Shown piece by piece: positions 1,666 to 21,195 of a stretch of DNA of 21,614 nt. Position 1 is the stretch's first letter. Every line of letters starts with the position of its first letter. The notes under the pieces were generated by a model that ran no database searches, had not been told where the DNA came from, and saw nothing but the letters and a program-made list of their open reading frames with translations. Origin of the DNA: a virus; the IMG/VR virus record IMGVR_UViG_3300012920_000331, positions 1 to 21,614 of that record; one strand, given 5' to 3'. A program made the translations under genes and the position numbers.

Positions 1666-2199
1666 ATGGCTTTTAGTCAACAATTTAAAGTAACAGGATT
1701 AAACAAAGTAAAAAAGAAAGTTGATCTAGGAAACTTATCTAATAAACCGATCAGATCTTATATGCGTACTTCCGCTTATCTGATCAAGAACAGAGCGCAA
1801 GAAGTAGCACCTGAAGACACAGGCGCACTTAAAAGATCTATTAGATCAACACAGATCAAAAGTAAAGGAAGATTACCGCAACGGATCCAAGTTAGATCAG
1901 ACAGCCCGAAGTCCCCTTTTGTTCATGGCGATCCAAAGAGATCAGGAAAGCTAAAACTATCCGAGCCATTTACTAGATCTAAACCGCACTTTCCACCTGT
2001 AAGGAAACTTCGTGGGTGGGCAGAAAGAAAGTTGGGCGATCCAAACTTAGCTTTCGTAGTTGCTAGATCAATAGCAGAAAAAGGAACACCGCTTGTACCT
2101 TATTTACTGATCGCTGAAAGAGATACTAAGACAGAAAGAAAAGCACTCTTAGTGGATCTAGCGAACGATATTGAGAAACAATTTAAGAAATTAAATTAA
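1666..2199 (+). CDS. Neck/tail-completion protein, HK97 gp10-like
   Basis: A 177-residue basic protein. The segment APEDTGALKRSIR (residues about 48-60) is the hallmark of the HK97 gp10-like family, found in siphoviral neck or head-closure proteins that stabilise the head-tail junction. A long basic stretch follows (FTRSKPHFPPVRKL), and the C-terminal helix ends IEKQFKKLN. It begins three bases after the adaptor stop, without a clear ribosome site, so translational coupling is likely. It is the last gene before the AT-rich control region, which breaks the structural operon; the tail terminator, which would normally follow directly, is found only at 4016. Confidence 0.85.
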   Translation: MAFSQQFKVTGLNKVKKKVDLGNLSNKPIRSYMRTSAYLIKNRAQEVAPEDTGALKRSIRSTQIKSKGRLPQRIQVRSDSPKSPFVHGDPKRSGKLKLSEPFTRSKPHFPPVRKLRGWAERKLGDPNLAFVVARSIAEKGTPLVPYLLIAERDTKTERKALLVDLANDIEKQFKKLN

Positions 2200-2216
2200 A
2201 AAAATAAAATTTTTTT
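2198..2216 (+). terminator. A/T-only hairpin with T-tract after neck gene
   Basis: Seven A residues overlapping the stop codon pair with seven T residues across a TAAAA loop, leaving a T-rich tail before CCC. An all-A/T stem is weak, but equivalents stand directly behind the last gene in the two other control regions (18207 and 21025), which supports a termination or boundary role. Confidence 0.4.
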
Positions 2217-2227
2217 CCCACTCTTTT

Positions 2228-2245
2228 AAGCCTATAAACATTGGG
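2228..2245 (+). repeat. 18-nt intergenic element, copy 1 (forward)
   Basis: AAGCCTATAAACATTGGG. The same 18 bases recur exactly at 21097-21114, and an inverted 16/18 copy lies at 18318-18335. All three are in the control regions ahead of the palindromic promoters. In this copy the ends can also pair (AAGCC with GGCTT) as a short hairpin. Confidence 0.75.
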
Positions 2246-2304
2246 CTTATTCTTTAAAAAACTTCAAATATAGGCTAAATCAGCCATATTAAAAAAAAAG
2301 GTTG

Positions 2305-2333
2305 TTGACTTATTATTTAATCTATGGTTAAAT
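2305..2333 (+). promoter_or_regulatory. Promoter overlapping palindromic operator, copy 1
   Basis: TTGACT (2305-2310) and TTAAAT (2328-2333) are separated by 17 bases, a good sigma-70-type promoter. The spacer and -10 are covered by an imperfect palindrome, ATTTAATCT-A-TGGTTAAAT (2315-2333, two mismatches), related to the better palindromes at 18405 and 21156. The layout suggests a dimeric repressor or activator shared by the three units. Transcription would start near 2340, just ahead of the GAAAGGAAAC ribosome site. Confidence 0.7.
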
Positions 2334-2353
2334 TAAGTATGAAAGGAAACAAT

Positions 2354-2521
2354 ATGAATAACGAAAAAAAATACACATTAGCAGAATTGACAACTTGCTC
2401 TTTTGATCCGACACATATCTTGGTTATCAAAAAAGCATTTGTTAAAGGGGATCAAAAGTTTTGTAGTAAAAATTGTAAAGCTACATACATAAGCGATATG
2501 GAATTAAGTAGAAGTTGGTAA
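2354..2521 (+). CDS. Small Cys-containing protein, first gene of the inserted cassette
   Basis: A 55-residue protein of unknown function. The ATG at 2354 is chosen because GAAAGGAAAC (2341-2350) lies at proper spacing; the ATG at 2339 overlaps the ribosome site itself and the one at 2324 lies inside the promoter palindrome. Same start layout as the genes at 18455 and 21196. It contains a zinc-knuckle-like FCSKNC motif (about residues 36-41) and one more Cys near residue 15, so a small treble-clef or half zinc ribbon is possible. Its placement in a structural operon with its own promoter marks it as an early-type or accessory gene. Confidence 0.7.
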   Translation: MNNEKKYTLAELTTCSFDPTHILVIKKAFVKGDQKFCSKNCKATYISDMELSRSW

Positions 2522-2526
2522 AAAGT

Positions 2527-2889
2527 ATGACAATAAAAACTTCTAAATCTAACACTTTGAAAGGGGGTGTTGTGGGGGTACATTGTAAATCTTGTACTTG
2601 TAGTTTCAGCAGTACAATTCCTAGAGCTATGCGACAGGCGTTGACTATACCTGCTGAAGTTCCTACTAAGCGTGAGCGTAAAGTTCATTGTCCTAGTGGC
2701 GAAACTAAATCTACTTGCGAAGTTTCTGTTTTTACTACAAAAACAAGACTTCGGATTACAACTTGTAAACCGTGTAGCGTAAAGCGTTTCGCTGATCACG
2801 GAAACGGTTGTGATACAGTATTTTATAATTCACTCGATCTTCCGTCAGCCGAAAGGGTTGTCGTAAGATCCGTGCCTTATAAACTGTAG
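2527..2889 (+). CDS. Cys-rich protein of unknown function, probable zinc binder
   Basis: About 120 residues from the ATG at 2527, five bases after the previous stop; no strong ribosome site, so coupling is likely. It holds three Cys clusters: HCKSCTC near residue 20, HCPSG with a Cys nine residues on, and CKPC with NGC further down. Such pairs suggest one or two zinc ribbons. Codon use differs from its neighbours: Arg is often CGT or CGA rather than AGA, and GATC, dense elsewhere, is absent from about 2460 to 2790. That suggests a recent arrival. The frame could be partly fortuitous, but the Cys spacing argues for a real gene. Confidence 0.6.
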   Translation: MTIKTSKSNTLKGGVVGVHCKSCTCSFSSTIPRAMRQALTIPAEVPTKRERKVHCPSGETKSTCEVSVFTTKTRLRITTCKPCSVKRFADHGNGCDTVFYNSLDLPSAERVVVRSVPYKL

Positions 2890-2901
2890 ATCATAAAAAA
2901 A

Positions 2902-2923
2902 TGGCGGGGCTGATCACCCGCCA
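2902..2923. other. GC-rich hairpin with A-run on its left
   Basis: TGGCGGG (2902-2908) pairs perfectly with CCCGCCA (2917-2923) over an 8-base loop. On the + strand the right side is AAAGAAAAT, so it lacks a U-tract there. On the - strand it would be followed by seven T, as in an intrinsic terminator. It may therefore stop antisense transcription or protect the mRNA of the genes that follow. It comes after the stop at 2889 and before the ribosome site of 2949. Confidence 0.5.
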
Positions 2924-2948
2924 AAGAAAATATAAAAGGGGAATAATT

Positions 2949-3191
2949 ATGAGAGAAGAACAAATAAAAAAAGATAAGTTTGTAGAACTTATTGAAAGAA
3001 GAGTGAATAGCTGTACTAATCAAATGAGATTGATCGGCAATCTTGCTAATCAGCATTTATATAGTTACACAGATCTAGAAATAGATTTAATTGAAACTCA
3101 TCTTGAAGAACAACTAAAAAAGAATATAGATCAATTAAGAGCTAGAAAAATAACTCAACCTGATCTATTCGACTTTGAAGAAGGGGAATAA
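2949..3191 (+). CDS. Small acidic helical protein of unknown function
   Basis: 80 residues from the ATG at 2949, preceded by AAAAGGGG; the in-frame ATG at 2901 lies in the hairpin and has no ribosome site. The protein is predicted to be largely helical, with a charged N-terminus (MREEQIKKDKFVELIERR) and a middle helix (DLEIDLIETHLEEQLKKNIDQ). It ends in an acidic tail, DLFDFEEGE. The stop overlaps the start of the next gene (TAATG). The AAAGGGG-type ribosome site recurs for the next genes and again at 21384, unlike the GAAAGGA sites of the structural genes. No family recognised. Confidence 0.75.
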   Translation: MREEQIKKDKFVELIERRVNSCTNQMRLIGNLANQHLYSYTDLEIDLIETHLEEQLKKNIDQLRARKITQPDLFDFEEGE

Positions 3192-3325
3192 TGACACCAT
3201 TAGAAAATATAAAGCAGATCATCGCTCATGACATTACAAGTCATGATCAGATCGATCAGATCAGAACAACTTTAGATCTTAAAGAGATAGATCTAAATTA
3301 TCCAAACTTGAAAGGGGAACTATAA
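3191..3325 (+). CDS. 44-residue protein, translationally coupled
   Basis: A short reading frame from an ATG overlapping the previous stop codon (TAATG), with GAAGGGGAA just upstream inside the preceding gene. The product is MTPLENIKQIIAHDI followed by a helix rich in Ile/Gln/Asp and ends NYPNLKGEL. Its stop is followed immediately by the next ATG. The interior carries a burst of GATC sites (six in 60 bases, 3244-3296). Unknown function; called real because of coupling on both sides and the ribosome site. Confidence 0.6.
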   Translation: MTPLENIKQIIAHDITSHDQIDQIRTTLDLKEIDLNYPNLKGEL

Positions 3326-3457
3326 ATGGATAAAGAAACTATGAGTAAGGAAGAATACGATAAGTTCGTTGAAGAAGGGGATTGGTTTTTAGATGAACAA
3401 GCACCCGACTTTAAAGAGAAGTTATTTAAAGATATGAAAGAAAGGGGAACGATATAA
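3326..3457 (+). CDS. 43-residue acidic protein, translationally coupled
   Basis: Begins directly after the previous stop, with AAAGGGGAAC before the ATG, and its own stop abuts the ATG at 3458. The product (MDKETMSKEEYDKFVEEG, then DWFLDEQAPDFKEKLFKDM) is acidic and amphipathic. Small acidic phage proteins of this kind often bind and block host factors, but nothing specific is recognisable, so the function is open. Confidence 0.6.
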   Translation: MDKETMSKEEYDKFVEEGDWFLDEQAPDFKEKLFKDMKERGTI

Positions 3458-3730
3458 ATGTCAGAAAATTACAAAGTCATAGGATCCATAAGCGTTGTTG
3501 GAACTTATGATGTTGAGAAAGGTAAGTTAGATCAGGTACACAAGATCATAAGAGATGATCTAGAACTAGCTGTAAAAGAACAAGATCAGTTACAAGAAGA
3601 TATCCTGAAAGAAGGTAAGCTAACGCCAACTATCAAACAGGATTACTATCTTGAAGTATCAGACAAAACAGGTTTACTACAATTAACCTTAATGCCTAAT
3701 ATCACACTAGAATTTCAAGAAGTAGAATAA
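3458..3730 (+). CDS. 90-residue alpha/beta protein of unknown function
   Basis: Preceded by AAAGGGGAAC and abutting the previous stop. The N-terminal strand (YKVIGSISVVGTYDV) leads into a helix (KLDQVHKIIRDDLELAVKEQD) and then to two strands (DYYLEVSD, LLQLTLMPNITLEFQEV): a small alpha/beta fold. I do not recognise the family. It is part of the inserted small-gene cassette and is followed after four bases by the next gene. Confidence 0.75.
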   Translation: MSENYKVIGSISVVGTYDVEKGKLDQVHKIIRDDLELAVKEQDQLQEDILKEGKLTPTIKQDYYLEVSDKTGLLQLTLMPNITLEFQEVE

Positions 3731-3734
3731 TATT

Positions 3735-3995
3735 ATGGAATTGAAACGCAGACTATTAGATCTTCAGACTTTCCTTCAGGGCGGATTGTCCGAAGATCTA
3801 AAGTCTTCGATCCAAAAGGATCTAAATAAAAGAGTTAAGATCTTATATTCAATAGAAGGAACTATTGATCTGATCATAGAAGGAAGATCAGTAGATCAAT
3901 GCAATCAGATCTTTAGATCTAAACTTCAGGATCTTAAAGATCGAGTAACGCAGATAGATCATACAGAAATCTACAAGACTATCGAAGGATCCTAG
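3735..3995 (+). CDS. 86-residue helical protein; densest GATC stretch in the window
   Basis: Mostly helical, with leucine-rich segments (MELKRRLLDLQTFLQGGL, and a C-terminal IFRSKLQDLKDRVTQID) compatible with a coiled coil. No family recognised. Upstream TATT-ATG spacing offers no strong ribosome site, so coupling to 3458 is likely. The gene and the 15 bases after it contain 16 GATC sites in about 275 bases where chance predicts about one, and they fall in different codon phases, so the protein sequence seems partly shaped by the DNA motif. It is the last gene of the cassette before the tail terminator. Confidence 0.72.
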   Translation: MELKRRLLDLQTFLQGGLSEDLKSSIQKDLNKRVKILYSIEGTIDLIIEGRSVDQCNQIFRSKLQDLKDRVTQIDHTEIYKTIEGS

Positions 3996-4015: not shown

Positions 4016-4426
4016 ATGGCGACTTTGACACAGATCAGATCAGGAATAGCAACGAACATATCGAATAACATCACGATCGTTGATGTTTTTGCTTATGTCC
4101 CCCACCGAGCCGAGCCACCTATAGCAATAGTTGGGGTGCTTGATACCTTAGAATATGATACTACTATGGCTAGGGGATCAGATAAATACTTGATCCCTGT
4201 AAGGCTTTATGTCGCTAATGTTGACGGTCAGGACAGCCAAGAAACTTTAGATCAGTTTATTAAGACTTCAGGAACTAACTCTATGAAGTCTGCAATAGAA
4301 AGCGATCTAACTTTGGGTGGTGTCGCGTCTTCTGTTAGAGTTACAGAAGTAAGAGATTACGGCGCCTTCGAGTTAAATAATACTGACTTACTTGGCGTGG
4401 AATTTGTAGTAGAAGTGATAGGATAG
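4016..4426 (+). CDS. Tail terminator/tail-completion protein
   Basis: 136 residues. The composition and order (helix MATLTQIRSGIATNI, short strands, PPIAIVGVLDTLEYD, then YLIPVRLYVANVDGQDSQETLDQF and a C-terminal strand LLGVEFVVEVIG) fit the gpU/gp17-like tail terminators and the corresponding actinophage minor tail proteins, which cap the tail tube at the head end. The short DSQETLDQF helix after a strand is typical. It lies between the neck genes and the tail-tube genes, as expected. There is no ribosome site; see the extended -10 at 4002. Family assignment rests on layout and fold pattern rather than a unique motif. Confidence 0.68.
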   Translation: MATLTQIRSGIATNISNNITIVDVFAYVPHRAEPPIAIVGVLDTLEYDTTMARGSDKYLIPVRLYVANVDGQDSQETLDQFIKTSGTNSMKSAIESDLTLGGVASSVRVTEVRDYGAFELNNTDLLGVEFVVEVIG

Positions 4427-10155: not shown

Positions 10156-11070
10156 ATGGCGGGTGCAGGTTGGAAAAGTTATAGCACAGGCGATTTAATT
10201 AGTGCTACAGAGTTTCAAACATTTTTACAAGATCAAGTTATACAAGTTTACGCAGATAGTTCAGCTAGAGATACTGCATTAGGAACTAATGACGCAGAAG
10301 GTATGTTCTGCTTTCTAAAAGATAGCAACACTTTACAATTTTATGACGGATCTAATTGGACGAATTTTATAGGTGAAGGCGATATAACAGGTGTTACAGC
10401 AGGATCAGGACTTACGGGCGGGGGTACAAGTGGCGCCGTAAGTTTAGCAGTTGATATAAATTCAGAAAGTTCAGTTACCCCTGTGAGTGCTGATGAGATT
10501 TTAATTGCTGACGCTAGCGCTAGTAATGCTATTAAGAAAACAACATTAGCTACTTTACCAATATCTACTGCTACACAATCAGCGCTAGATAACATTACAG
10601 CAGGAACAAGCACATTAACTATTCCTATTACTGTAAAAGTAGCAGACGACGGATCAGGATCGCAAAATGTATATTATATGCTTAATGGTACTGATACAGG
10701 GGCAGGAACTAAGACACCTGCTTTAGATGTAGCTGTAGGATATAAGTATAAATTTGATATTTCTGATAGCTCTAATACTAACCACCCATTAAAATTTTCT
10801 ACAACAAAAGACGGAACGCATAATTCAGGATCAGCATTTACAACTAATGTTACAGAAAGCGGAACAGCAGGATCCTCTAATGCTTATGTAGAAATAGAAA
10901 TAACACCTGAAACGCTTGGAACAGCAACTTCTACAGGTGCTACAGTAGGTAAATTATATTATTACTGCCCAAATCATAGCGGTATGGGTGCTGAAGGTAA
11001 TTTAAGCCTATATCCTAACGCGAGTTCGGGTGGTGGCGTGAGTTTAGGTTTAGTGATAGCATTAAGCTAG
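10156..11070 (+). CDS. Tail fibre protein with cupredoxin-like C-terminal domain
   Basis: 304 residues. The N-terminal 75 residues (GWKSYSTGDLISATEFQTFLQDQVIQVY in two parts, then FYDGSNWTNF) match a fibre attachment unit common in phages. A repetitive Gly/Ser/Thr middle follows (GVTAGSGLTGGG). The C-terminal domain at about 155-287 ends in YYYCPNHSGMG: Cys271, His274 and Met277, with His210 in NHPLKF further up, is the ligand order of type-1 copper cupredoxins. Whether copper is bound is unknown; the fold could be used purely for adhesion. A GAAAGG site precedes the ATG. Probably a host-contact component. Confidence 0.75.
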   Translation: MAGAGWKSYSTGDLISATEFQTFLQDQVIQVYADSSARDTALGTNDAEGMFCFLKDSNTLQFYDGSNWTNFIGEGDITGVTAGSGLTGGGTSGAVSLAVDINSESSVTPVSADEILIADASASNAIKKTTLATLPISTATQSALDNITAGTSTLTIPITVKVADDGSGSQNVYYMLNGTDTGAGTKTPALDVAVGYKYKFDISDSSNTNHPLKFSTTKDGTHNSGSAFTTNVTESGTAGSSNAYVEIEITPETLGTATSTGATVGKLYYYCPNHSGMGAEGNLSLYPNASSGGGVSLGLVIALS

Positions 11071-11083
11071 GAAAGGAATAGAA

Positions 11084-11428
11084 ATGGCGGAAACTTTTAA
11101 CACGGCTGACATAGCGGTTACAAACTCGGAACAGACTTTATATACTGCCCCAAGTAGTTCGGGCGATGTATCTATTATGTTATCTTTGAGAGTTACAAAC
11201 ATTGACGGAACTAATGATGATACTGTTACTGTTAAAATTTACGAAAGTGGCGGATCAACTCTAAAAGCGTCGATTGCGTCAACAATGACAGTACCAGCCG
11301 ACAGCTCTTTGGAACTTGCAGGAAATTCTAAAATAGTTTTAAAGCAATCTGAAGTAGTTAAGATCACGGGTGGTGCGTCAAGTGGCGATCTTGAAGCTTA
11401 TTTGTCTGTATTAGAAATTACGGCTTAG
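11084..11428 (+). CDS. Small beta-rich tail protein
   Basis: 114 residues, apparently all beta (TLYTAPSSSGDVSIMLSLRV, then DTVTVKIYESGG, SLELAGNSKIVLKQS, LEAYLSVLEITA). It resembles small beta-sandwich proteins encoded next to fibre genes in many marine phages and may be a fibre or collar trimer. The GAAAGGAA site at 11071 is a good match to the local consensus. The function is inferred from position between the two fibre-like genes; no enzymatic motif is present. Confidence 0.65.
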   Translation: MAETFNTADIAVTNSEQTLYTAPSSSGDVSIMLSLRVTNIDGTNDDTVTVKIYESGGSTLKASIASTMTVPADSSLELAGNSKIVLKQSEVVKITGGASSGDLEAYLSVLEITA

Positions 11429-11437
11429 GGGTTTAGT

Positions 11438-12439
11438 ATGTCTGAATATGGTTATACAGGAAAAGTACCTGCACAGAATACCGCAAAAAATAGCGGTGTC
11501 TTCCAAGTTAATGACATTATTGATTTAAAATCCGACAACGGTTGGTCGCTACAGGAATATCCTGTTCAATATTTAGTTATCGGTGGCGGTGGCGGTGGCG
11601 GTGGCGCCGAGTGGGTTTCGGGCGGTGGCGCAGGTGGCGCAGGCGGTTATCGTAATTCATACGCAAGTGAAACAAGCGGGGGAAATTCATCAACAGAAAC
11701 GCCATTAACAATTACACCCAATACAGATTACACAATTACAGTTGGCGCAGGTGGATCTCGCAAAAAAAATCAAGCCGTAGGCGGTGCAGGTAGCGATAGT
11801 GTTTTCGCGTCTATTACTTCTTTAGGTGGCGCAGGTGGGGCAGGCGCGCACGGGGGTAATGCTACTTCGGGCGGTGGATCGGGCGGTGGCGGTACAACTG
11901 CTACTTCTAAATCTAACGGTACTTCAGGTCAGGGCAAAAATGGTGGTAATGGTCTTCATGGGCCGAATACATGTCCTAATCACTACTTAGCAGGTGGCGC
12001 GGGTGGTGGCGCAGGTGGTAACGGAAATAACCCTAGCTGTAGCGGTGGAACTATTACGGGTGGTGCAGGATTAACTTCATCAATTACGGGAACTGCTGTT
12101 GGTCGTGGTGGCGGTGGTTTTGGTGCAGGTAACGATAATACTTTTAATTATCCTTTTGATAGTTCAACGGGTGGCGGTGGTACTTGTAATGGACAGGGCG
12201 GAACAGGTAGCGCTCGAAGTGGGGTAGCGAATAAAGGTGGTGGCGGTGGCGCCGCAACTTCAAACGCCAACGCTTATTCAGGTGCAGGCGGTAAAGGTGT
12301 AGTAATTGTCAGAGTTCCTTTTGATTGGAATTGTAACAATGCTAGTGGACTAACCTTTAGCGAAACTTTAGATTATGTTAACCACGAAAAAGTTATAGAA
12401 TTTACTGACGGTACTGATACAGTACAGTTTGGAGCATAA
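11438..12439 (+). CDS. Glycine-rich tail fibre adhesin
   Basis: 333 residues, probable receptor-binding fibre tip. The pattern YLVIGGGGGGGG at residue 47, followed by GGAGGAGGYRNS and a long stretch with many GGG, GGAGG and GGN repeats to about residue 285, is typical of the glycine-rich domain found in marine phage fibres and in T-even gp38-type adhesins, where such runs form polyglycine-II helix bundles with variable loops at the tip. The C-terminus (VIVRVPFDWNCNN) returns to ordinary sequence. The gene has only two GATC sites in 1 kb against 14-15 expected at the window average, partly because of GGT/GGC runs. The TAA abuts the next ATG. Confidence 0.8.
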   Translation: MSEYGYTGKVPAQNTAKNSGVFQVNDIIDLKSDNGWSLQEYPVQYLVIGGGGGGGGAEWVSGGGAGGAGGYRNSYASETSGGNSSTETPLTITPNTDYTITVGAGGSRKKNQAVGGAGSDSVFASITSLGGAGGAGAHGGNATSGGGSGGGGTTATSKSNGTSGQGKNGGNGLHGPNTCPNHYLAGGAGGGAGGNGNNPSCSGGTITGGAGLTSSITGTAVGRGGGGFGAGNDNTFNYPFDSSTGGGGTCNGQGGTGSARSGVANKGGGGGAATSNANAYSGAGGKGVVIVRVPFDWNCNNASGLTFSETLDYVNHEKVIEFTDGTDTVQFGA

Positions 12440-12910
12440 ATGGCTTATTACGCATTTATAAACGAAGATAATGTAGTAGTCGAAGTTATTTCAGGTAAAA
12501 ATGAAGATGAAACAACACCTGAAGGCTATGACACTTGGGAAGAATATTATCAAAGTAAAAGAGAAGGGCTTACTTGTTTAAGAACATCATACAATACTTA
12601 TGATGATGTATATTTAGATCCGCAAACAGGCGATCCTGCTGAAGATCAAAGCAAAAAATTTAGGGGGAACTTCGCTTGTAAAAACTCTATTTATATATCT
12701 GAAGGCGATTATTTTACGCCTGCTAAAGAGTTTAGCACTTGGGTTTATGACGAAAGCATAGGAAATCTAGGCGATTGGGTACCACCTGTAGCTAAACCTA
12801 CAGCAGAAGAATTAGAAGATGATCAGATTGCATTATGGAACGACGATGATGTCCAATGGGACATTTATGAGTGGAACACTACTACTGAAATATACGAAAA
12901 AATAGAGTAG
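12440..12910 (+). CDS. Fibre-associated protein of marine-phage type
   Basis: 156 residues starting directly after the fibre stop. The beginning MAYYAFINEDNVVVEVISGKN in two parts, then CLRTSYNTYDD and KKFRGNFACKNSIYISEGDYF, matches a family I recall next to fibre genes in cyanophages and pelagiphages (strand-rich start, -TSYNT-, -FRGNFA-, -F-P-K-F-SW-). The role is unproven; a fibre chaperone or an adaptor is usually assumed. The C-terminus is acidic (EELEDDQIALWNDDD). It ends 28 bases before the next start, with a palindrome in the gap. Confidence 0.7.
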   Translation: MAYYAFINEDNVVVEVISGKNEDETTPEGYDTWEEYYQSKREGLTCLRTSYNTYDDVYLDPQTGDPAEDQSKKFRGNFACKNSIYISEGDYFTPAKEFSTWVYDESIGNLGDWVPPVAKPTAEELEDDQIALWNDDDVQWDIYEWNTTTEIYEKIE

Positions 12911-12919
12911 AAAAACACT

Positions 12920-12940
12920 ATAAAGCTACACTAGCTTTAT
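12920..12940 (+). promoter_or_regulatory. Perfect palindrome over start codon (operator or RNA switch)
   Basis: The arms ATAAAGCTA and TAGCTTTAT (9 bp, no mismatch) are separated by CAC. The left arm overlaps a TATAAA -10-like box (12919-12924) and the right arm contains the first two bases of the ATG at 12939, which has no ribosome site. As DNA it has operator geometry; as RNA it would hide the start codon in a stem. Confidence 0.55.
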
Positions 12941-13646
12941 GAAAAAAATTATATTTAAAGCACTCGAAAAAAAATACGACACATTAGATAAACTTCCTGT
13001 CCCTGCTAGTAATAAATTGCCTGATTGGTACAAAGATATAAATATTTATGGCGATACAGAAAAAGCTGATGAAATAGAAGTAGGTACTAATTTAACTAAT
13101 GGTACATTTAAAAAATGTATTCCAATACTAGACGCATTAGGTTTGGGATATATCATAGAAACTCAATACGATATAGTCCTGAAACACATTGACGGTCATT
13201 GGGATTTAACTTGGAAAACGCAAGAAACAATATTTGAGCCACACGCAGAACATACTTCAAAAATAGAAACGCCTTATGGTTATTATTCTAGAGTAGCTAA
13301 GTATCAATATAGAAGATTACCTATTACGCCTAAAGGATATTCATCTTTAGTAATAAGCCCTATCGGTTATAACAAATTACCTTTTAAAGCTGTTGCGGGT
13401 GTAATAGATACTGATCGTAATATTTCAGGTTTCGCTTTACCCGTATGGGTTTCCAAAAATCACAGGGGTATAGTCAAGCATGGAACACCTATTGCACAGA
13501 TTATTCCATTTAAAAGAGATAATTGGGAAATGGTCAGCGATTATTTTAAAGACAATGATTATTATGTTCAAGAGCAAAACAGTTTCGGTAGGTACGCTAT
13601 AAATCATTATGCAAAAGAAATATGGAAAAAGAAAAAATTTAAATGA
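12939..13646 (+). CDS. LPDWYK-family protein 1, dUTPase-like motifs
   Basis: 235 residues, unknown function, of a type seen in marine phages near fibre genes. It starts with a KLPDWYKD motif (26-33). The stretch PKGYSSLVISP (131-141), GVIDTD (154-159) and GTPIAQIIPFKR (182-193) follows the order and spacing of the dUTPase/dCTP-deaminase core (PxGY, G-ID-D, G-xIAQ), but the conserved Tyr after the Asp is Arg and the Gly-rich C-terminal motif is missing, so catalysis is doubtful. I infer a shared beta fold reused for binding. A second copy follows with ATGA overlap. Nearly free of GATC (one site), unlike the rest of the window. No ribosome site. Confidence 0.65.
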   Translation: MKKIIFKALEKKYDTLDKLPVPASNKLPDWYKDINIYGDTEKADEIEVGTNLTNGTFKKCIPILDALGLGYIIETQYDIVLKHIDGHWDLTWKTQETIFEPHAEHTSKIETPYGYYSRVAKYQYRRLPITPKGYSSLVISPIGYNKLPFKAVAGVIDTDRNISGFALPVWVSKNHRGIVKHGTPIAQIIPFKRDNWEMVSDYFKDNDYYVQEQNSFGRYAINHYAKEIWKKKKFK

Positions 13647-14374
13647 GTGAAATAAATGTCTATCCTAGACACAAACTTGTAGAAAATTTATTAGAACTTT
13701 ATCCACCACAGCCAATAAATAGATTTCTTCCTGATTGGTATAAAAAACAAAAAGTAAATAATAAAGAAGATTTTTATTTTAAAGATAAAGCTATTCAAGC
13801 AAAAAGATGTCCTGCAATAATTGAAGAAGTTACACGGGGTATAGTAATACCAAGTTGGACAGATTTTTTTATATATAAGAAAGGCGATGTAATTAATTGG
13901 GTTGCAGAAGTCGGACGCCGTCCTGAATTAGATCATATAAAATGGATAACAGAGCAGGGCGAAGATCAAATTGAACACATGAAATTAAATGGAATTAACA
14001 GCTATGGTATTTTAAAACTAACTTCCCCTTATTTATTTAAAGCGCCTAAAGGTTATGGAATACACTTTAAAGACCCTTTTTACCACCATAGAAGAAATAT
14101 TAGATTGTTAAGTGGATATGTTGAAAGCGATATTTGGTATGAAACAAATTTTCCTTTTGAGTTTTATAAAGATATTAATGTAACTGAAGAAGAAAGTTTA
14201 GTGATCAAAGCAGGCGATCCATTAATAGTCATGGAATTATATAAAAAAGATCAAAAGCATGAAGTCAAAGTAAATAAATACGATGAAGAATTTATAGATC
14301 TACATACTAAACAAGCACAACACTTATATTCTATGAGTGAAGATTGGAATAGATATACTAAATTTTATAAATAA
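13643..14374 (+). CDS. LPDWYK-family protein 2 (diverged paralogue)
   Basis: 243 residues. It begins inside the stop of the previous gene (ATGA) and repeats its plan: LPDWYKK at 29-35, PKGYGIHF at 135-142, GYVESD at 158-163, then GDPLIVMELY at 191-200, with a longer, Lys-rich C-terminus. Overall identity is low, so the duplication is old. In this copy the first Asp of the G-ID-D motif is Glu and the IAQ motif is lost, so it is even less likely to be an enzyme. The pair may act as a complex; placement behind the fibre genes suggests a structural or host-interaction role, as an inference. It ends 30 bases before the 14405 gene. Confidence 0.65.
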   Translation: MSEINVYPRHKLVENLLELYPPQPINRFLPDWYKKQKVNNKEDFYFKDKAIQAKRCPAIIEEVTRGIVIPSWTDFFIYKKGDVINWVAEVGRRPELDHIKWITEQGEDQIEHMKLNGINSYGILKLTSPYLFKAPKGYGIHFKDPFYHHRRNIRLLSGYVESDIWYETNFPFEFYKDINVTEEESLVIKAGDPLIVMELYKKDQKHEVKVNKYDEEFIDLHTKQAQHLYSMSEDWNRYTKFYK

Positions 14375-14388
14375 AATTACTTATTTTT

Positions 14389-14397
14389 TGATATAAT
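14389..14397 (+). promoter_or_regulatory. Extended -10 promoter, likely leaderless
   Basis: TG-A-TATAAT is a perfect extended -10 element; seven bases separate it from the ATG at 14405, and there is no ribosome site between. The start point predicted from the -10 is at or within one base of the ATG. No good -35 is seen, as usual for extended -10 promoters. It would drive the lysis block separately from the fibre genes. Confidence 0.6.
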
Positions 14398-14404
14398 CAA
14401 CTTT

Positions 14405-14995
14405 ATGAAACTACAACTAATTAGAACTCAATTTGGGAAAGACGCTGTCAATGGTATGTTATTTGTGGACGGTGTATTCGAGTGCTATACCCTAGAAGAT
14501 GAGTATAGGGATATTAAGATAGCAGGCGAAACATGTATTCCCGAAGGCACATATCCTATTGAATATCGTAATGAAGGTGGCTTTTTCAATCGTTATACAA
14601 AGAAATTTCCTACGATCCATAAGGGACGCGGTATGCTCGAAATAAAACAGATCCCGAACTTTAAATGGGTGCTTTTTCACTTAGGGAATACTGACGAAAA
14701 TACGGCAGGTTGCGTTCTAGTAGGATCTACTCAACAGGATCTAGATGTTTCTAAAGACGGATTTATAGGAAATAGCAAGCTAGCTTATACAAACTTCTAT
14801 CCAAAAGTCGCAGACGCTTTAGATCGTGGCGAAAAAGTTACATTAGAGATCACTAAAGTAAACTTAGGATCAGAAGTAACTAACGCTAGTCCACCTGATA
14901 TGATCCACCCAAACAATATAAAAGACGATTTATCAGAGATTAAAGGATTGATCAGGATCCTTAATGCTAAACTAGAAGGAAAGAACATAACCTAG
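14405..14995 (+). CDS. DUF5675-like protein, probable lysis-associated
   Basis: 196 residues. The first 150 resemble DUF5675, a family found in phage lysis regions: LIRTQFGKDAVNG, then CYTLEDE, IPEGTYPIEYRN, and FHLGNTDENTAGCVLVG (His92, Asn95, Cys103). The His-x-Gly-Asn...Gly-Cys pattern is reminiscent of peptidoglycan-acting cysteine enzymes (L,D-transpeptidase-like), but activity is unproven for the family. A C-terminal helix (DDLSEIKGLIRILNAKLEG) follows a Pro-rich linker. It precedes a zinc ribbon and a holin-like gene, which supports a role in lysis. Likely leaderless; see 14389. Confidence 0.72.
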   Translation: MKLQLIRTQFGKDAVNGMLFVDGVFECYTLEDEYRDIKIAGETCIPEGTYPIEYRNEGGFFNRYTKKFPTIHKGRGMLEIKQIPNFKWVLFHLGNTDENTAGCVLVGSTQQDLDVSKDGFIGNSKLAYTNFYPKVADALDRGEKVTLEITKVNLGSEVTNASPPDMIHPNNIKDDLSEIKGLIRILNAKLEGKNIT

Positions 14996-15009
14996 AAAGG
15001 TTTATCACT

Positions 15010-15132
15010 ATGGGTATTAACTGCCCAAGCTGTAATATATCTTTAGTTTATGTTAAAGGTGCTTGGAAATGTCTTCAACAAAAGTGCAAACACTTTAACA
15101 AAAGACAATTCGGAAAGGTAGAAGAAGAATAA
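15010..15132 (+). CDS. 40-residue zinc-ribbon protein
   Basis: MGINCPSCNISLVYVKG..., with CPSC at 5-8 and Cys21/Cys26 after a 12-residue gap: two Cys pairs suitable for one zinc. A GAAAGG site stands upstream and the stop overlaps the holin-like start (TAATG). Similar micro zinc ribbons occur throughout the window. Function unknown; a DNA- or RNA-binding or folding module is possible. Confidence 0.65.
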   Translation: MGINCPSCNISLVYVKGAWKCLQQKCKHFNKRQFGKVEEE

Positions 15133-15350
15133 TGGCTAAAAAAGATTGGAAAGCATATTGGAAGTTTATGATCGTAAAGGCTTTACGAACAGGCTTGCAA
15201 TCAGCAATCGGCGTTTATCTTAGTGCGCAGACAGGAATTATTGACGCGGACTTAGTACAAGTATTGGGGGTAAGTTTCGCTACAAGTGCGCTTACTGTAC
15301 TTCAACACGCTTTAGAGCAGTATAAGCCTGCACAAACTTTCGACGCATAA
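15132..15350 (+). CDS. Holin-like small membrane protein (r1t type)
   Basis: 72 residues. A basic, aromatic start (MAKKDWKAYWKFMIVKALRTGLQ) is followed by a hydrophobic segment (SAIGVYLSAQTGI), an acidic turn (IDADLVQ) and a second hydrophobic segment (VLGVSFATSALTVLQHALEQY). This is the r1t-type holin pattern common in phages of Gram-positive hosts, where the protein opens the cytoplasmic membrane for the endolysin. Start-stop overlap with the zinc ribbon. The endolysin is not adjacent; candidates are the DUF5675-like protein and the enzyme at 20555. Confidence 0.75.
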   Translation: MAKKDWKAYWKFMIVKALRTGLQSAIGVYLSAQTGIIDADLVQVLGVSFATSALTVLQHALEQYKPAQTFDA

Positions 15351-15369
15351 TTCTTTAAACAGAATTTGA

Positions 15370-17547
15370 GTGATCTATCGGTTTAATACACTTGTTAGAT
15401 TACTTCTTGTCGTATTTTTAGTAATTCCTGTACCCGTTTTACTTGCTGAAGAAGTAACAACAACAGAAAATTTTAATAATCAACAAATAAATCAGGATAT
15501 ACAGTTCCTTTATGGATCTTCTGATACTGCTGTAACTGCGATCAATAGTGGATCATGCGGGGAAACTACGACAGCAGGATCAATATTTATTGAAGATCTT
15601 GATTGTTTTGGATCAGAATACTTTGGATCTGATCGTTATCAGCTTGGAATAAGATCAAGTACAGACGATCTAACGATCTCTTTTCCTAGTTCTGATCAGA
15701 AACAGATAAGAGAAGTAGGCTTTACTTATAATGCAAGAGAAAGCACAGGATCAGGCACGGTATATTATGACAATGGATCTTCGGCTACTTTTACTTTAAT
15801 AAATACTTGGGATCAGGCTAATAATGTTGTTGCAGATAGTACAGCTACATTAACTTTAACTGTAGAAAATACTTACATAACAGAAATAGTTATTGACGGG
15901 GCTACAGATAATCAACAAGATTGGTGGCTTATAGATGATGTTTATTATACTTATGACAATGGAACGACTACAACTACTACTTCATCGACTACAAGTAGCA
16001 CTACTAGCAGTACTACAAGTACATCTAGTACGACAACAACAACTAGCACCACGACAACGACTACTTTACCGCCTGAAACTACGACTACTACATCTACGAC
16101 GACGACTACGAGTACGACTACTACATCTACGACTACTACGACGATCCCGCCAACTACGACTACATCGACGACTACTACTACTATTCCGCCGTCAACTACG
16201 ACGACTACGATAGCCCCACCGCCACCACCTACAACTACTACGACTTTAGCCCCTGTAATAGTCAAGATTGGCGATGAAGAAGTCGAATACACACAAGATC
16301 AGATAGATCAGGGCGACGCTCAAAGAGATCAGGAAAGACAAAAAAACGAAGAAGAGTACGGCTGTTATTTAACTGACGCCCAAATTTTGCGCGGGGATTG
16401 TGATATTGAAGAAGAAGAGATCATAGAAGAAGAGATTATAGAAGAAGAGATCATAATAATTGAAGATCTTACTGATGAAGAGATAGAAGAATTAGATCTA
16501 AAAGCTGAAGAAGATCTAGAAGATCTAGAAATAATAGAAGAAGAGATCATAGAAGTTGAGTTTGATCCTGAACTAGATCTATCTGAGGAAGAAAAAGAAG
16601 AGATCATTAAAGTAATTGAAGAGTTAAATGAATTAGATCTAGAAGAATTTGTAATAGAAGAAGACGAATTTGATGAAATTGTGATCATAATTGAGCCTGA
16701 AGATGAAGAGATCATAGAAATAAAAGAAGAAATTATAGAGATAGAAGAAGAGATTGTAGAAGAAATACTTGAAGAGATCCTTCCTGAAGAGATCACAAAA
16801 GAAGAATTTGAAGAAATAAAAGAAAAAGAAATAGAAGATCTTACAGAAGAAGAAGTAGAACTTGTAGTAGCTGTAGTTGAAGAAGTAATTGAAGAGATCA
16901 TTGATCTAGAAGAAGTAGTAGAAGTATTAGATCAAGAAGAGTTAGAAGATCTATCAGAAGAAGAATTAATAGAATATGAAGAAGAATTAGAAGAACAGAT
17001 CGAAGAATTTGTAGAAACTCTTGATCAAGAAGAGCAGATCGAAGTCTTAGAACAGGTTTCAACTGTTGAAGTACAATCTTTAGCAGTTGCAGACAAACAA
17101 ACACAGAAAGTAGTACAAGCTGTAGTTAATAAAGTTACAGAAGTTAAAACTGTTGAAACATTATCTACAGAAGAAAAAGAAGTTGTAGCTGAAGTATTAG
17201 GCGTACAGGGTGCAGAAGATCTAGAGATCTTAGCAGAGAGCGCCGAGAAAGATGAGAATATAAGTAAAGCTGTTGAAGAATATGTTGAGAGAGCAACTTC
17301 AGAAGATAATAAAGATGTAGAAAATTTTACCGTTGCTGATGTTGTTGTAGAAATTCAAGTAGAAGAGTTTATAGCAGATCCGATCGGTGCTATTATTGAT
17401 GTAGATTTGTCTGAAATAAACATTAGAGAAATCGGATCGGACATGACGGAAGATCAGAAGGCTAAAGCTAGGGAAACTACGATCCCTGTTATTATTGCTA
17501 GTCAGATCATAAGTGCAAGTGCGATCCCTTTTAGAAGGAATTTTTAA
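15370..17547 (+). CDS. Exported protein: beta domain, Thr-rich linker, Glu/Ile-rich region
   Basis: 725 residues from a GTG start. A clear signal peptide: basic MIYRFNTLVR, hydrophobic LLLVVFLVIPVPVLL, likely cut near LLA-EE (about residue 26). Residues about 30-195 form a beta domain (ending WWLIDDVYYTYDNG, a lectin/carbohydrate-binding-like ending). Residues 198-293 are almost pure Thr/Ser/Pro, the kind of linker common in Acidimicrobiia surface proteins. Residues about 300-570 are extremely acidic, rich in EEEIIEE-type repeats, probably helical. The C-terminal 22 residues (TIPVIIASQIISASAIPF then RR) could be a membrane anchor. It lies between the holin-like gene and a two-helix membrane gene. 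No known phage function fits; a host-derived surface protein or envelope-disrupting factor is inferred. Confidence 0.75.
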   Translation: MIYRFNTLVRLLLVVFLVIPVPVLLAEEVTTTENFNNQQINQDIQFLYGSSDTAVTAINSGSCGETTTAGSIFIEDLDCFGSEYFGSDRYQLGIRSSTDDLTISFPSSDQKQIREVGFTYNARESTGSGTVYYDNGSSATFTLINTWDQANNVVADSTATLTLTVENTYITEIVIDGATDNQQDWWLIDDVYYTYDNGTTTTTTSSTTSSTTSSTTSTSSTTTTTSTTTTTTLPPETTTTTSTTTTTSTTTTSTTTTTIPPTTTTSTTTTTIPPSTTTTTIAPPPPPTTTTTLAPVIVKIGDEEVEYTQDQIDQGDAQRDQERQKNEEEYGCYLTDAQILRGDCDIEEEEIIEEEIIEEEIIIIEDLTDEEIEELDLKAEEDLEDLEIIEEEIIEVEFDPELDLSEEEKEEIIKVIEELNELDLEEFVIEEDEFDEIVIIIEPEDEEIIEIKEEIIEIEEEIVEEILEEILPEEITKEEFEEIKEKEIEDLTEEEVELVVAVVEEVIEEIIDLEEVVEVLDQEELEDLSEEELIEYEEELEEQIEEFVETLDQEEQIEVLEQVSTVEVQSLAVADKQTQKVVQAVVNKVTEVKTVETLSTEEKEVVAEVLGVQGAEDLEILAESAEKDENISKAVEEYVERATSEDNKDVENFTVADVVVEIQVEEFIADPIGAIIDVDLSEINIREIGSDMTEDQKAKARETTIPVIIASQIISASAIPFRRNF
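15961..16248 (+). repeat. Low-complexity ACN tract (Thr/Ser linker)
   Basis: About 290 bases of ACN triplets (ACT, ACG, ACA) broken by TCN and CCN, coding the Thr/Ser/Pro linker of the 15370 gene. Synonymous codons are well mixed rather than iterated, which limits slippage; this is selection for the peptide, not an expanding DNA repeat. GATC is nearly absent here because Thr/Ser/Pro codons rarely allow it. Confidence 0.85.
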
Positions 17548-17956: not shown

Positions 17957-18032
17957 AACTTATGTAAACGAAAACGGTACATATATTACTATATGTAACT
18001 GTAAGCATGGATATTTTAGTCATGTCGGATAA
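17943..18032 (+). CDS. 29-residue Cys/His-rich ORF overlapping both neighbours
   Basis: From ATG 17943, the product includes TICNCKHGYFSHVG, with three Cys and two His in total, suggesting metal binding. It overlaps the end of 17813 by 14 bases and the start of 18007 by up to 26 bases. Support is the overlap chain and the Cys/His pattern. Chance occurrence is possible. Confidence 0.35.
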   Translation: MTSCKTYVNENGTYITICNCKHGYFSHVG

Positions 18033-18204
18033 CGGTTACACACAAAAAGAGATGATCAATAAAGTGATGAAAGATATAGAAAAGCTATTTGAAAAGTTAG
18101 ATCAGATCCAAAAGGATCTAGCTACACGCCCAACAAGACAAGAGATCTACGGTTGGATCATAGCGGGAATATCGATTGCGACATTGATCACGGTCTTAAT
18201 GTAA
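18007..18204 (+). CDS. Coiled-coil protein with C-terminal membrane anchor
   Basis: Up to 65 residues. The ATG at 18022 (MSDNGYTQKEMI) is as credible as 18007; neither has a ribosome site. A charged coiled-coil helix (VMKDIEKLFEKLDQIQKDL) is followed by a linker and one C-terminal hydrophobic helix (WIIAGISIATLITVLM). This is the plan of XhlA-like proteins, membrane-anchored lysis partners encoded with holins. The last gene of the lysis/envelope block; an A/T hairpin follows directly. Confidence 0.65.
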   Translation: MDILVMSDNGYTQKEMINKVMKDIEKLFEKLDQIQKDLATRPTRQEIYGWIIAGISIATLITVLM

Positions 18205-18206: not shown

Positions 18207-18229
18207 CAAAAGTTCTAAGCGTTTTTTGG
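18207..18229 (+). terminator. Hairpin/T-tract with AGTTCTAAGC core, copy 1
   Basis: CAAAAGTTCTAAGC then GTTTTTTGG stands three bases after the stop at 18204. The 13-base core AAAAGTTCTAAGC recurs at 21027, also just after the last gene of a block and also followed by six T and GG. The outer A and T runs can pair. A terminator or block boundary is the likely role. Confidence 0.5.
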
Positions 18230-18394
18230 ACAAAAAATAGACGATTTTATTCAAAAAATAAATATTTTTTTTTCGCTTGCATTTTATTTATTTACATGTG
18301 CGTTATGATATAAAATACTCAATGTTTACAGGCTTTTCTATTTTATATGCACAGATCTTTTAATTATGTCAATCAATATAAATATTTTTTAAAT
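18230..18394. other. Non-coding AT-rich control region, left part
   Basis: No gene is seen from 18205 to 18454. The stretch is over 75% A+T by eye, with runs of A and T (for example T-runs near 18264 and A-runs near 18235). It holds an extended -10-like TG-A-TATAAA at 18306-18314 that could start a short RNA near 18321, the inverted 18-nt element, and then the palindromic promoter. A short non-coding RNA is possible but not shown. Confidence 0.4.
18318..18335 (-). repeat. 18-nt intergenic element, copy 2 (inverted)
   Basis: Reads CTCAATGTTTACAGGCTT on the + strand; its reverse complement matches AAGCCTATAAACATTGGG of the two forward copies at 16 of 18 positions. It lies about 70 bases before the palindromic promoter, as the forward copies lie 42 and 72 bases before theirs. 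Confidence 0.65.
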
Positions 18395-18423
18395 TTGTAA
18401 TAATTTAATCTAAGGTTAAGATT
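18395..18423 (+). promoter_or_regulatory. Promoter overlapping palindromic operator, copy 2
   Basis: TTGTAA (18395-18400) lies ahead of the palindrome TTAATCT-A-AGGTTAA (18405-18419, one mismatch), with TAAGAT/TATATA -10-like sequences overlapping or following. The palindrome is shared with 2317 and 21156. The gene downstream has the same GAAAGGAAACGAAATG start as the gene at 21196. Confidence 0.6.
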
Positions 18424-18454
18424 ATATATATAAGACATATTGAAAGGAAACGAA

Positions 18455-18640
18455 ATGAAACTTTATACACTAAGAAACAACAAAGGGGTAGCACACTCTT
18501 ACCATAACAATAAAAGGGACGCTATCGCAGAACTTAAAGTCTTGTTAATGTTAGAAGGATCCAAGAAAGGTCGTAAAAGAAATACAGTTATCTTTAACGA
18601 CGGTACTGTTTGGGCTATCGAAGAAAGCGTAGCAAGATAA
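18455..18640 (+). CDS. 61-residue basic protein, first gene of early-type unit
   Basis: Start at ATG 18455 behind GAAAGGAAAC; the upstream TTG at 18440 would run through the ribosome site. The product (MKLYTLRNNKGVAHSYHNNK, then DAIAELKVLLMLEGSKKGRK and VIFNDGTVWAIEESV) looks like a small alpha/beta protein with a basic helix. No family recognised. The stop overlaps the next ATG (TAATG). A first gene behind a shared regulated promoter may be an early host-takeover protein, as inference. Confidence 0.72.
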   Translation: MKLYTLRNNKGVAHSYHNNKRDAIAELKVLLMLEGSKKGRKRNTVIFNDGTVWAIEESVAR

Positions 18641-19009: not shown

Positions 19010-19070
19010 GTAAATACTAGGATCTACGCACCTTTCTATTAAACTACGATTAAACAACAGAAGGGCTAGC

Positions 19071-19331
19071 GTGTCTAAATCTTTTGACGAATTTATTAAA
19101 GAAAATCCTAGTAGCTTGATACATCAATCTAATACTAAATACTATCTAAAAAGCGAAAAAACTTTTAAAGAGTGGAATAAAGCATTAGAACATTATGACA
19201 ATGGCTACAGAAGACAAGCCATAATAGATTGGTTAACTGCTGAAGACGGTTGCGGGTGGACTATATCAAGAAACTCTATTGAAAGGTATTTTACGCAGTA
19301 TGACAAAAAGAAAAACAAAAAAGACGATTGA
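19071..19331 (+). CDS. 86-residue helix-turn-helix-like protein
   Basis: GTG start with AGAAGGG upstream; the gap before it holds two ATTAAAC repeats 11 bases apart. The middle (YRRQAIIDWLTAEDGCGWTI, then SRNSIERYFTQYDK) has the length and spacing of a helix-turn-helix with the recognition helix at SRNSIERYF. The product ends in a basic Lys-rich tail. It overlaps the phosphoesterase gene at 19300 by 32 bases, so the two are made together. It may guide the enzyme to DNA or regulate the unit; inference. Confidence 0.65.
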   Translation: MSKSFDEFIKENPSSLIHQSNTKYYLKSEKTFKEWNKALEHYDNGYRRQAIIDWLTAEDGCGWTISRNSIERYFTQYDKKKNKKDD

Positions 19332-20376
19332 TCAGTTTCAGGAAGAACATGTAGAGAAACTAGAAAGAGAAAACAAAGAACTTAAAGCAACTAACAGAAG
19401 AGTTTTAAAGTCATTAGAAAACGCCAAACACAAGAAACAGGATCTAGTTAACGCTGTTTATCAAGCTGTCAAAGACAATTTAAGCCTAATAGAGATCCCT
19501 AAAGTTAAAGTTCCGCCTAGAGATCGTAGAAAAGGACAGGAAGAAATAGCAATAGCCTTACTTTCTGACATACAATTAGCCAAAGTAACACCTGATTACA
19601 ATACAGAAATAGCAGAAGAAAGAGTATTAAGGTACGCAGACAAGATCATCAACATCGCTAGGATTAAGCGTAAGTCTTTCCCTGTAAAGAAAGTAGCTGT
19701 TTTAGTTCTTGGCGACATAGTAGAAGGCGAGTTAATATTCGCAGGGCAGGAACACTTGATCGATAGTTCTTTATATAGACAAGTAACAATCGACGCACCA
19801 AGAATTATGATCGGTTTTCTTGATAAATTACTAGCAGAGTTTGAAGAAGTAGATTGTCATTTAGTTATAGGTAATCATGGTGCTTTGGGTGGTAAATCTA
19901 GAAGATCTTATAACCCTGAAACTAACGCTGATCGCATGCTTTATAAGATCTTAGAGCTTGCTTATAAGGATCAGAAAAGAATAACCTTTAATAGTCCTGA
20001 CGGGGAAGGCGAAAGAAATTGGTACACGGTAGCTGAACTAGGCGAAAAACTACGCTTTTTCTTATTTCATGGGGATCAGATCAGGGGTTTCGGTGGGATC
20101 GCTTGGTATGGATATAATAAAAAGATCTTAGGTTGGAAGGCTTTAGCGTCTAACGGGCTAATGGAAGACTTTGATTATGCTGTTTGTGGACATTATCACA
20201 CGCCTACAACGATGTATATTAACGACACTAGGGTTTGGGTTAACGGATCTACAGAGAGTTATAACACTTTCGCACAAGAACAATTAGCAAGCATGGGGCG
20301 TCCATGTCAGTTCTTATTGTTTGGAAAAGACGGATCAGGCGTAACTTCTGAATATTTAATAAATTTGGAAAAATAA
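19300..20376 (+). CDS. Calcineurin-like metallophosphoesterase
   Basis: 358 residues from the ATG at 19300, with GAAAGG 13 bases upstream; the TTG at 19279 is less likely. An N-terminal coiled coil (about 10-60, EEHVEKLERENKELKATNRR) is followed by the catalytic domain with all five metal motifs: LSDIQ (Asp90, Gln92), LGDIVEGE (Asp139), IGNHG (Asn192, His193), FHGDQ (His257) and CGHYH (297-300). The first motif is D-x-Q instead of D-x-H, which occurs in some phage members. Members cleave phosphodiesters or phosphomonoesters, often in nucleic acids; a DNA nuclease/phosphatase of replication or host takeover is plausible. The coiled coil suggests dimers. Confidence 0.88.
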   Translation: MTKRKTKKTIDQFQEEHVEKLERENKELKATNRRVLKSLENAKHKKQDLVNAVYQAVKDNLSLIEIPKVKVPPRDRRKGQEEIAIALLSDIQLAKVTPDYNTEIAEERVLRYADKIINIARIKRKSFPVKKVAVLVLGDIVEGELIFAGQEHLIDSSLYRQVTIDAPRIMIGFLDKLLAEFEEVDCHLVIGNHGALGGKSRRSYNPETNADRMLYKILELAYKDQKRITFNSPDGEGERNWYTVAELGEKLRFFLFHGDQIRGFGGIAWYGYNKKILGWKALASNGLMEDFDYAVCGHYHTPTTMYINDTRVWVNGSTESYNTFAQEQLASMGRPCQFLLFGKDGSGVTSEYLINLEK

Positions 20377-20379
20377 ATA

Positions 20380-20395
20380 AATCTTAGATTATAAT
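20380..20395 (+). promoter_or_regulatory. Half-palindrome plus -10 box ahead of 20402
   Basis: AATCTTAGATT (20380-20390) is an 11-base palindrome matching the centre of the TTAATCTTAGATTAA element, and it runs into TATAAT (20390-20395). Six bases further is the ATG at 20402, with no ribosome site, so transcription would be leaderless. The repressor suggested for the full palindromes might act here too. Confidence 0.5.
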
Positions 20396-20554: not shown

Positions 20555-20995
20555 TTGATTGCTGAAGTTCTTATAGCTTGTACTTTGTCGTCCCCGATTG
20601 TACCTTCAGATCTGCAATTTTATTGGGATTGCAGGAAACACAATGAAATTATCTATCACATGGAAGATTATGTAGATCTATTCCATGAATACTTTGAAGA
20701 TCCTGAAGATCTAGGAAAGATTTTAAGGATCGCTTTTTGTGAAAGTAGCGGAAAACCTACAGCATATAACGAAAACAAAGACGGATCCAACGATCTAGGG
20801 ATCCTACAGTTTAACAATCGTACTTGGTGGGATTGGTTAGCGCCAAAGCTAAAGATCACAAGCGAGAGAACTGATGTTAGAGTGTCTGTCGCTGTTGCAA
20901 GTTGGCTGATCAAAAATGATACTGTGAATAGATACGGACATGGTTGGTATCATTGGTACCCTTCTAGATCCTGTTGGGATCTTAAAAATCTATAA
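20555..20995 (+). CDS. Lytic transglycosylase/lysozyme-like muralytic enzyme
   Basis: 146 residues. The core FCESSGKPTAYNENKDGSND, then LGILQFNNRTWWDW, has the catalytic Glu (Glu63 in CESSG), the A-x-N step (Ala70, Asn72) and the G-x-x-Q motif (Gly82, Gln85) of the SLT/Rpf-type lysozyme fold that cuts the glycan strand of peptidoglycan. The TTG at 20555 is a weak start, but no better one keeps the first helix. The N-terminus (MIAEVLIACTLSS) is hydrophobic with an LIAC lipobox-like sequence but no basic residues, so export is uncertain. Cys 26, 62 and 140 may pair. The endolysin candidate, or an entry-stage wall-cutting enzyme. Confidence 0.8.
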   Translation: MIAEVLIACTLSSPIVPSDLQFYWDCRKHNEIIYHMEDYVDLFHEYFEDPEDLGKILRIAFCESSGKPTAYNENKDGSNDLGILQFNNRTWWDWLAPKLKITSERTDVRVSVAVASWLIKNDTVNRYGHGWYHWYPSRSCWDLKNL

Positions 20996-21175: not shown

Positions 21176-21195
21176 TAGGTATGAAAGGAAACGAA

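Follow-up and report, generated by a model that had tools for sequence, protein, structure and literature searches.

Does one regulator control the similar control regions that recur across the genome of an uncultured virus, one of them lying inside its structural operon? How uncultured phages regulate their genes has hardly been read, as they have no host in which to be grown; here, sequence comparison on its own gave an operator, the geometry of its promoters, a candidate for the regulator and a change in specificity that arose naturally. The sequence examined was the 21,614-base IMG/VR virus record IMGVR_UViG_3300012920_000331 (the window, assigned here to clade K1), which encodes head, neck, tail and lysis-like proteins together with small genes without known function. 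Genes were called by a home-made model, and the start sites of small genes are approximate.

A palindromic promoter module recurs across the window

The initial annotation had described three regions (2198–2354, 18207–18455 and 21025–21196) sharing, in the same order, an A/T hairpin next to the preceding gene, an 18-nt element, a palindrome overlapping a promoter and a conserved sequence ahead of a small gene. Inspection of the sequence found every listed part in all three, including a hairpin after each preceding gene; the 18-nt element of the middle copy is inverted. The features, with two additional sites, are as follows.

2198–2216: A/T hairpin A7-TAAAA-T7 where the neck/tail-completion gene ends; may be a terminator
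2228–2245, + strand: 18-nt element, copy 1, AAGCCTATAAACATTGGG
2305–2310, + strand: −35 hexamer TTGACT, 18-nt spacer to TAAATT at 2329–2334
2317–2331: operator palindrome 1, TTAATCTATGGTTAA, in the spacer and overlapping the −10
2341–2350, + strand: start element GAAAGGAAAC, 3 nt before the ATG at 2354
2354–3995, + strand: accessory cassette of small genes between the neck gene (1666–2199) and the tail terminator gene (4016–4426)
18207: AAAAGTTCTAAGCGTTTTTT (direct repeat D12), just 5′ of the following hairpin
18253–18272: A/T hairpin after the gene at 18007–18204
18318–18335, − strand: 18-nt element, copy 2, inverted, one mismatch
18395–18400, + strand: −35 hexamer TTGTAA, 16-nt spacer to TAAGAT at 18417–18422
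18405–18419: operator palindrome 2, TTAATCTAAGGTTAA
18442–18451, + strand: start element GAAAGGAAAC, before the ATG at 18455
19039–19053: extra operator, TTAAACTACGATTAA, ahead of gene A (19071) and of the gene for the calcineurin-like phosphoesterase (19300–20376)
20378–20392: extra operator, TAAATCTTAGATTAT, ahead of gene B (20402) and of the lysozyme-like gene (20555–20995)
21025–21047: A/T hairpin AAAAAAGT-TCTAAGC-ACTTTTTT after the gene at 20555–20995
21097–21114, + strand: 18-nt element, copy 3, AAGCCTATAAACATTGGG
21145–21150, + strand: weak −35 CTGTAA, 17 nt before TAATCT at 21168–21173
21156–21170: operator palindrome 3, TTAATCTTAGATTAA, perfect
21183–21192, + strand: start element GAAAGGAAAC, before the ATG at 21196

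The 15-base palindrome consensus is TTAATC-N3-GATTAA. Six sites with two or fewer mismatches occur in the window versus 0.47 in dinucleotide-preserving shuffles (shuffle maximum 2), and five of the six are intergenic, intergenic DNA making up 17% of the window. A match at 14929 lies inside a gene and is probably a chance match. The three copies originally described were therefore real, but the window carries at least five operators: the extra palindromes at 19039 and 20378 stand without the 18-nt element and without the start element, and both have orthologous sites in relatives. An RNA hairpin role for the palindrome was ruled out, as the loop would be one base only. The ‘added overlapping half-site’ reported at 21156 does exist as TTAATCT at 21167, but corresponds to TAATCT at the expected position of the −10 hexamer.

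The start element, GAAAGGAAAC-RAW-ATG, was confirmed at 2341, 18442 and 21183, with no further copies in the window. Across five K1 contigs, all 15 exact copies of GAAAGGAAAC lie 2–4 nt before a start codon and 24–37 nt after the start of a palindrome, and none was found in contigs G002 and G003 of the sister clade K2. Judged by this placement, GAAAGGAAAC is a predicted ribosome-binding sequence, specific to clade K1 and tied to the palindrome-promoter class. The 18-nt element is real but optional within the module, being absent from many copies. It was found ~48–90 bp upstream of some, not all, K1 operators, in either orientation, as well as at position 4814 of a relative (L165). At least 119 exact matches occur in IMG/VR, which is about chance level, and the element was rejected as a general phage signal.

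The palindrome occupies two registers over sigma70-type promoters

The proposed overlap of palindrome and promoter was borne out in both clades, where sigma70-type promoter elements stand in register with the palindromes. In K1, 18 non-redundant palindromes combine TTG (or TTTACA), a 16–18 nt spacer and TANNNT starting from palindrome base 13, a register found at 0.1% of random positions. Nearly all of these are then followed by GAAAGGAAAC; the remainder are promoters of cassettes in relatives. At 21156, the window's copy departs only at the first base of its −35 (CTGTAA for TTGTAA), and two relatives have TTGTAA there. In K2 the −35 itself falls within the palindrome: ten sites carry TTGAC in the right half, mostly followed by an 18-nt spacer and TAATAT. 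An extended −10, GGCCTAATAT, is also conserved in promoters of this clade (G002, G003, G004 and G008), downstream of the −35 on which the operator lies. Upstream of K2 gene A the palindrome ends 1–3 bases 5′ of the ATG, so that gene A transcripts are probably leaderless or nearly so. As the palindrome covers the −10 in K1 and the −35 in K2, it is better read as an operator than as a core promoter element, and its differing registers over promoter elements make it look like the operator of a repressor.

Orthologous sites occur in related viruses

The phosphoesterase beside the module, used as a query, retrieved 80 viral loci. Palindromes were present at the same genes in close relatives (L005–L011, K1) and in K2 (76–79% identity), while none was found at the phosphoesterase loci of L015 and L016 or in loci with identity of 66% or lower. 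For G001–G004 and G008 the analysis covered full or longer contigs. Relatives mostly carry 6–8 near-consensus palindromes per contig versus 0.4–0.9 expected, nearly all intergenic and in orthologous positions; all six palindromes of G003 are intergenic, although only 6% of that contig is. In K2 the palindromes stand before genes A and B, before the gene that follows the lysozyme-like gene, before a helix-turn-helix (HTH) gene and before replication-region genes. The initial annotation had staked its reading, one regulator acting on a dispersed regulon, on the module recurring at conserved positions in related phages, and the search of related contigs found orthologous sites; enrichment and intergenic placement also support that reading.

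Searches with the HTH and ERF-like proteins added eight groups beyond K1 and K2. When entire contigs were searched for recurrent palindromes, coding sequence overwhelmed the result, and a search of intergenic DNA took its place. Run unsupervised and group by group, this returned TTAATC-N3-GATTAA (or a one-base shift of it) at or near the top in eight of ten groups (K1, K2, K3, V, U, T, R and Q). Group Z has a one-base variant operator, TAAA[AT]C-N3-G[AG]TTTA, and group Y a TAAATC-N3-GATTG[GC] form between −35 and −10; group X has almost no recognisable operator, with a single similar site before gene B. The viruses of the family are uncultured, infect bacteria and are probably marine. Scans of GTDB genomes with the HTH protein and the terminase gave no close relative, and terminase matches among phages were mixed and less than 60% identical; a marine actinobacterium as host is only a guess.

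A promoter is kept, and its cargo exchanged, inside the structural operon

That one unit is embedded in the late operon was upheld by the cassette at 2354–3995 and by an operator at the same junction in relatives. A palindrome-promoter stands between the neck and tail-terminator genes in L158, L160, L162–L167 and G001, its core perfect in most, usually directly after the neck gene and after one gene in L163 and L167. The first genes of the cassette differ among these relatives. The junction promoter being present throughout, it follows that the promoter-operator was kept and the cargo exchanged. In K2 the cassette is absent, with the neck and tail-terminator genes adjacent (L168). Morons of tailed phages are independent, promoter-driven cassettes between late genes whose content varies among relatives. 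The cassette likewise has its own promoter, an insertion point between structural genes and variable content, but differs in that the operator on its promoter is one that the phage also uses for its other units. Of terminator-like features, A/T hairpins alone were seen.

A small winged-helix protein is the likely regulator

All groups encode a BldC/MerR/Xis-like winged-helix protein of 63–80 aa, usually downstream of a palindrome. In K1 and K2 this HTH protein has 64–66 aa, adjoins ERF/Rad52-like and HTH_36 proteins and is encoded behind an operator; for the window, its gene is expected beyond the end of the record, ~0.7 kb on. In K2, K3, V and U this operator sits on the leader of the HTH gene itself; in K1 one gene intervenes and the distance is ~426 nt. 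Groups Z, Y, X and T/Q showed no clear operator close upstream of it. Where the HTH gene is present, contigs hold 112 sites in 513 kb (reversed control, 3); where it is absent they hold 13 sites in 769 kb, of which truncated near relatives (the window, L010 and L021) account for at least 10. HTH_36 and ERF-like proteins co-occur with the HTH gene equally well.

The AlphaFold model of the HTH protein is a winged helix (pLDDT 84, recognition helix 19–27) with the fold of the MerR/BldC/Xis superfamily. The nearest solved folds were CbpM, BldC, the MerR family and phage excisionases (Xis), none of them significant (E 0.06–0.5), and Pfam HTH_17 matched at E=0.001, below the curated cut-off. The only PDB sequence match of the HTH profile was a weak one to a mycobacteriophage immunity repressor (7r6r, E=0.043). 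The recognition helix carries S (R..[VL][AS]S) in TTAATC groups and Q in X, Y and Z, where operator position 2 is A; this association (6/7 T-type versus 0/3 groups) gives p of about 0.03, uncorrected for phylogeny. In the tree of ERF and HTH_36 proteins Z is sister to K3; the HTH_36 helix is identical between these two groups, and both the HTH helix and the operator differ, which favours the small HTH protein over HTH_36.

The small HTH protein is therefore the likely operator-binding regulator on comparative grounds. The initial annotation had named HTH or zinc proteins as candidates; the regulator is probably this HTH protein and none of the small zinc-type proteins. A ParB-like (KorB-like) protein was rejected, being present in K2 and in the palindrome-poor L118 and L016 and absent from the K1 genes listed; gene A was rejected as sole regulator, as it also occurs in the palindrome-free L015 and L118.

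A conserved, structured RNA leader lies ~75 nt before the HTH-gene ATG in L095, L097–L099, L108, L110, L111, L113, L116–L118 and L016. Its two-part stem has compensatory changes in six of eight consensus pairs, with folding z-scores of −2.9 to −3.8. The loop reads CCUUUC in most groups and can pair with the Shine-Dalgarno sequence GAAAGG, and an ACGCACCUA-like stretch is conserved. The leader, which had no match in Rfam, may regulate translation of the HTH repressor.

Proposed mechanism and alternative explanations

We consider it probable that an autoregulated phage winged-helix repressor controls the early-type units, including the cassette in the structural operon. The module would be a sigma70-type phage promoter with a 15-bp palindromic operator on its core elements, repeated at five to eight places per genome. 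The winged-helix protein (63–80 aa), encoded in a recombination/replication operon under its own operator, would bind these operators, exclude RNA polymerase and so shut off or hold off the early-type units together, along with its own gene. The interchangeable small genes between the neck and tail-terminator genes would then be expressed on an early schedule despite their late-gene location, and K1 transcripts of these units would share a special ribosome-binding sequence. Binding, repression as the direction of control and timing are all predictions from sequence comparison; ‘early-type’ draws on the promoters, copies of which precede about six groups of genes, and on the neighbouring replication and recombination genes. 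Among 12 contigs, some of them fragments, neither a tyrosine nor a serine recombinase was found, and one contig, G003, almost closes on itself. Lysogenic immunity fits less well than an autoregulated shut-off of early genes, with a non-integrating prophage possible. A fuller version is tentative, and we would sooner doubt than accept it: a one-domain, BldC/Xis-like master repressor, autoregulated, of an apparently non-integrating phage family, its specificity having co-changed with its operators at least once (the K3/Z split) and its mRNA leader able to mask the ribosome site, with the operator-promoter serving as a socket for exchanging host-takeover or counter-defence genes.

The same arrangement could instead serve activation, the palindrome being a class II or MerR-like activator site. 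MerR relatives often activate, and the K2 palindrome is centred just upstream of the −35, near −40. MerR activation, however, typically involves an elongated spacer of at least 19 nt (PMC9938897), whereas the K1 site covers a normal 16–18 nt spacer and the −10, and in K2 the −35 boxes are close enough to consensus to do without an activator; we regard activation as fairly unlikely. It is unlikely that the operator is bound by the replisome-organizer-like HTH_36 protein of the same operon, doubling as a transcription regulator or initiator. This protein (Pfam HTH_36, E=1.8e-12) is present in essentially all contigs having the palindrome and the HTH gene, yet its recognition helix is nearly invariant, even across the differing operators of K3 and Z, and the sites are dispersed over promoters rather than gathered in an origin-like cluster.

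Recognition by a host factor, or a palindrome that is itself a host-type core promoter element, could explain why TAATCT and TAAGAT resemble −10 hexamers (TANNNT). We hold this to be very unlikely, given that the register relative to −35 and −10 differs between clades, that both half-sites are conserved and that phosphoesterase relatives without the phage HTH gene have promoter-like sequence at the phosphoesterase gene but no palindrome. Recent duplication of promoter cassettes, with no common regulator, would account for the 18-nt element, ribosome-binding sequence and TTCTAAGC hairpin shared by the window copies, but is scarcely credible when groups with different flanking DNA and different downstream genes retain nothing but the palindrome.

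Comparison with known regulatory systems

The closest architecture is that of cluster K mycobacteriophages, which carry start-associated sequences (SAS) and extended SAS (ESAS) (PMC3203893), the latter containing SigA-like promoters (PMC11373665). Both systems have intergenic copies with a SigA-like promoter, an imperfect inverted repeat and a conserved pre-start sequence, and the inverted-repeat consensus varies between cluster K subclusters as the operator varies between groups here. The sequences are different. The SAS is the 13-bp GGGATAGGAGCCC, 3–9 nt before start codons, in place of GAAAGGAAAC; an inverted-repeat promoter upstream of a start element is found in K1 as architecture only. 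Cluster K has pairs of 15–17 bp inverted repeats with a spacer, whereas the window family has one 15-bp palindrome. In cluster K start elements outnumber inverted repeats, whereas every exact start element here follows a palindrome. Both systems have copies in the non-structural part of the genome, but one copy here lies in the structural operon.

Cluster A stoperators resemble the predicted system in that one phage DNA-binding protein serves many genome sites, but they are asymmetric and also stop elongation (PMC9283540), unlike the palindromic, promoter-located sites here. Nor was an integrase found in the contigs of the window family. CvkR is a MerR-type repressor acting on a 15-nt palindrome, AnnACATnATGTnnT, over promoter elements (PMC9938897). 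It has a dimerisation domain, whereas the viral HTH protein has only a winged HTH and a short tail; BldC binds direct repeats, whereas the predicted operator is palindromic. The acr-aca operons of known phages are often set among structural genes. There too a small HTH repressor is paired with small early genes whose promoter bears an inverted repeat (PMC9410906). Here, in contrast, the regulator is encoded outside the cassette and would govern about six units. The window system is not assigned to cluster K SAS/ESAS, cluster A stoperators, CvkR/BldC or Aca.

The operator and candidate regulator form a pair that can be tested with synthetic DNA and a 66-residue protein, and the pair bears on the question of what cluster K-type promoter and start motifs do. 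In archaeal viruses, anti-defence genes have been located through conserved early regulatory sequences (PMC11065993); the operator could be a similar search handle, pointing to the swapping cassette, and to other small genes without known function, as candidates.

Other genome features

Several short words are avoided in K1 (window, G001 and G005): CTGG occurs 0 times against 57 expected, CCAG and GGAG once each against 30, and GGCC and GACC once each against 18. GATC is 1.9-fold over-represented. Avoidance of this degree was not seen in K2, and in K1 it suggests evasion of host restriction, or a modification system. The window also encodes a 725-aa protein (15370–17547; 618–751 aa among relatives) with Thr-rich and Glu/Ile-rich low-complexity stretches, likely a surface protein. 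The tail-tip/fibre genes are almost wholly exchanged between otherwise close relatives (window 10156–12910 versus G001 12020–16542).
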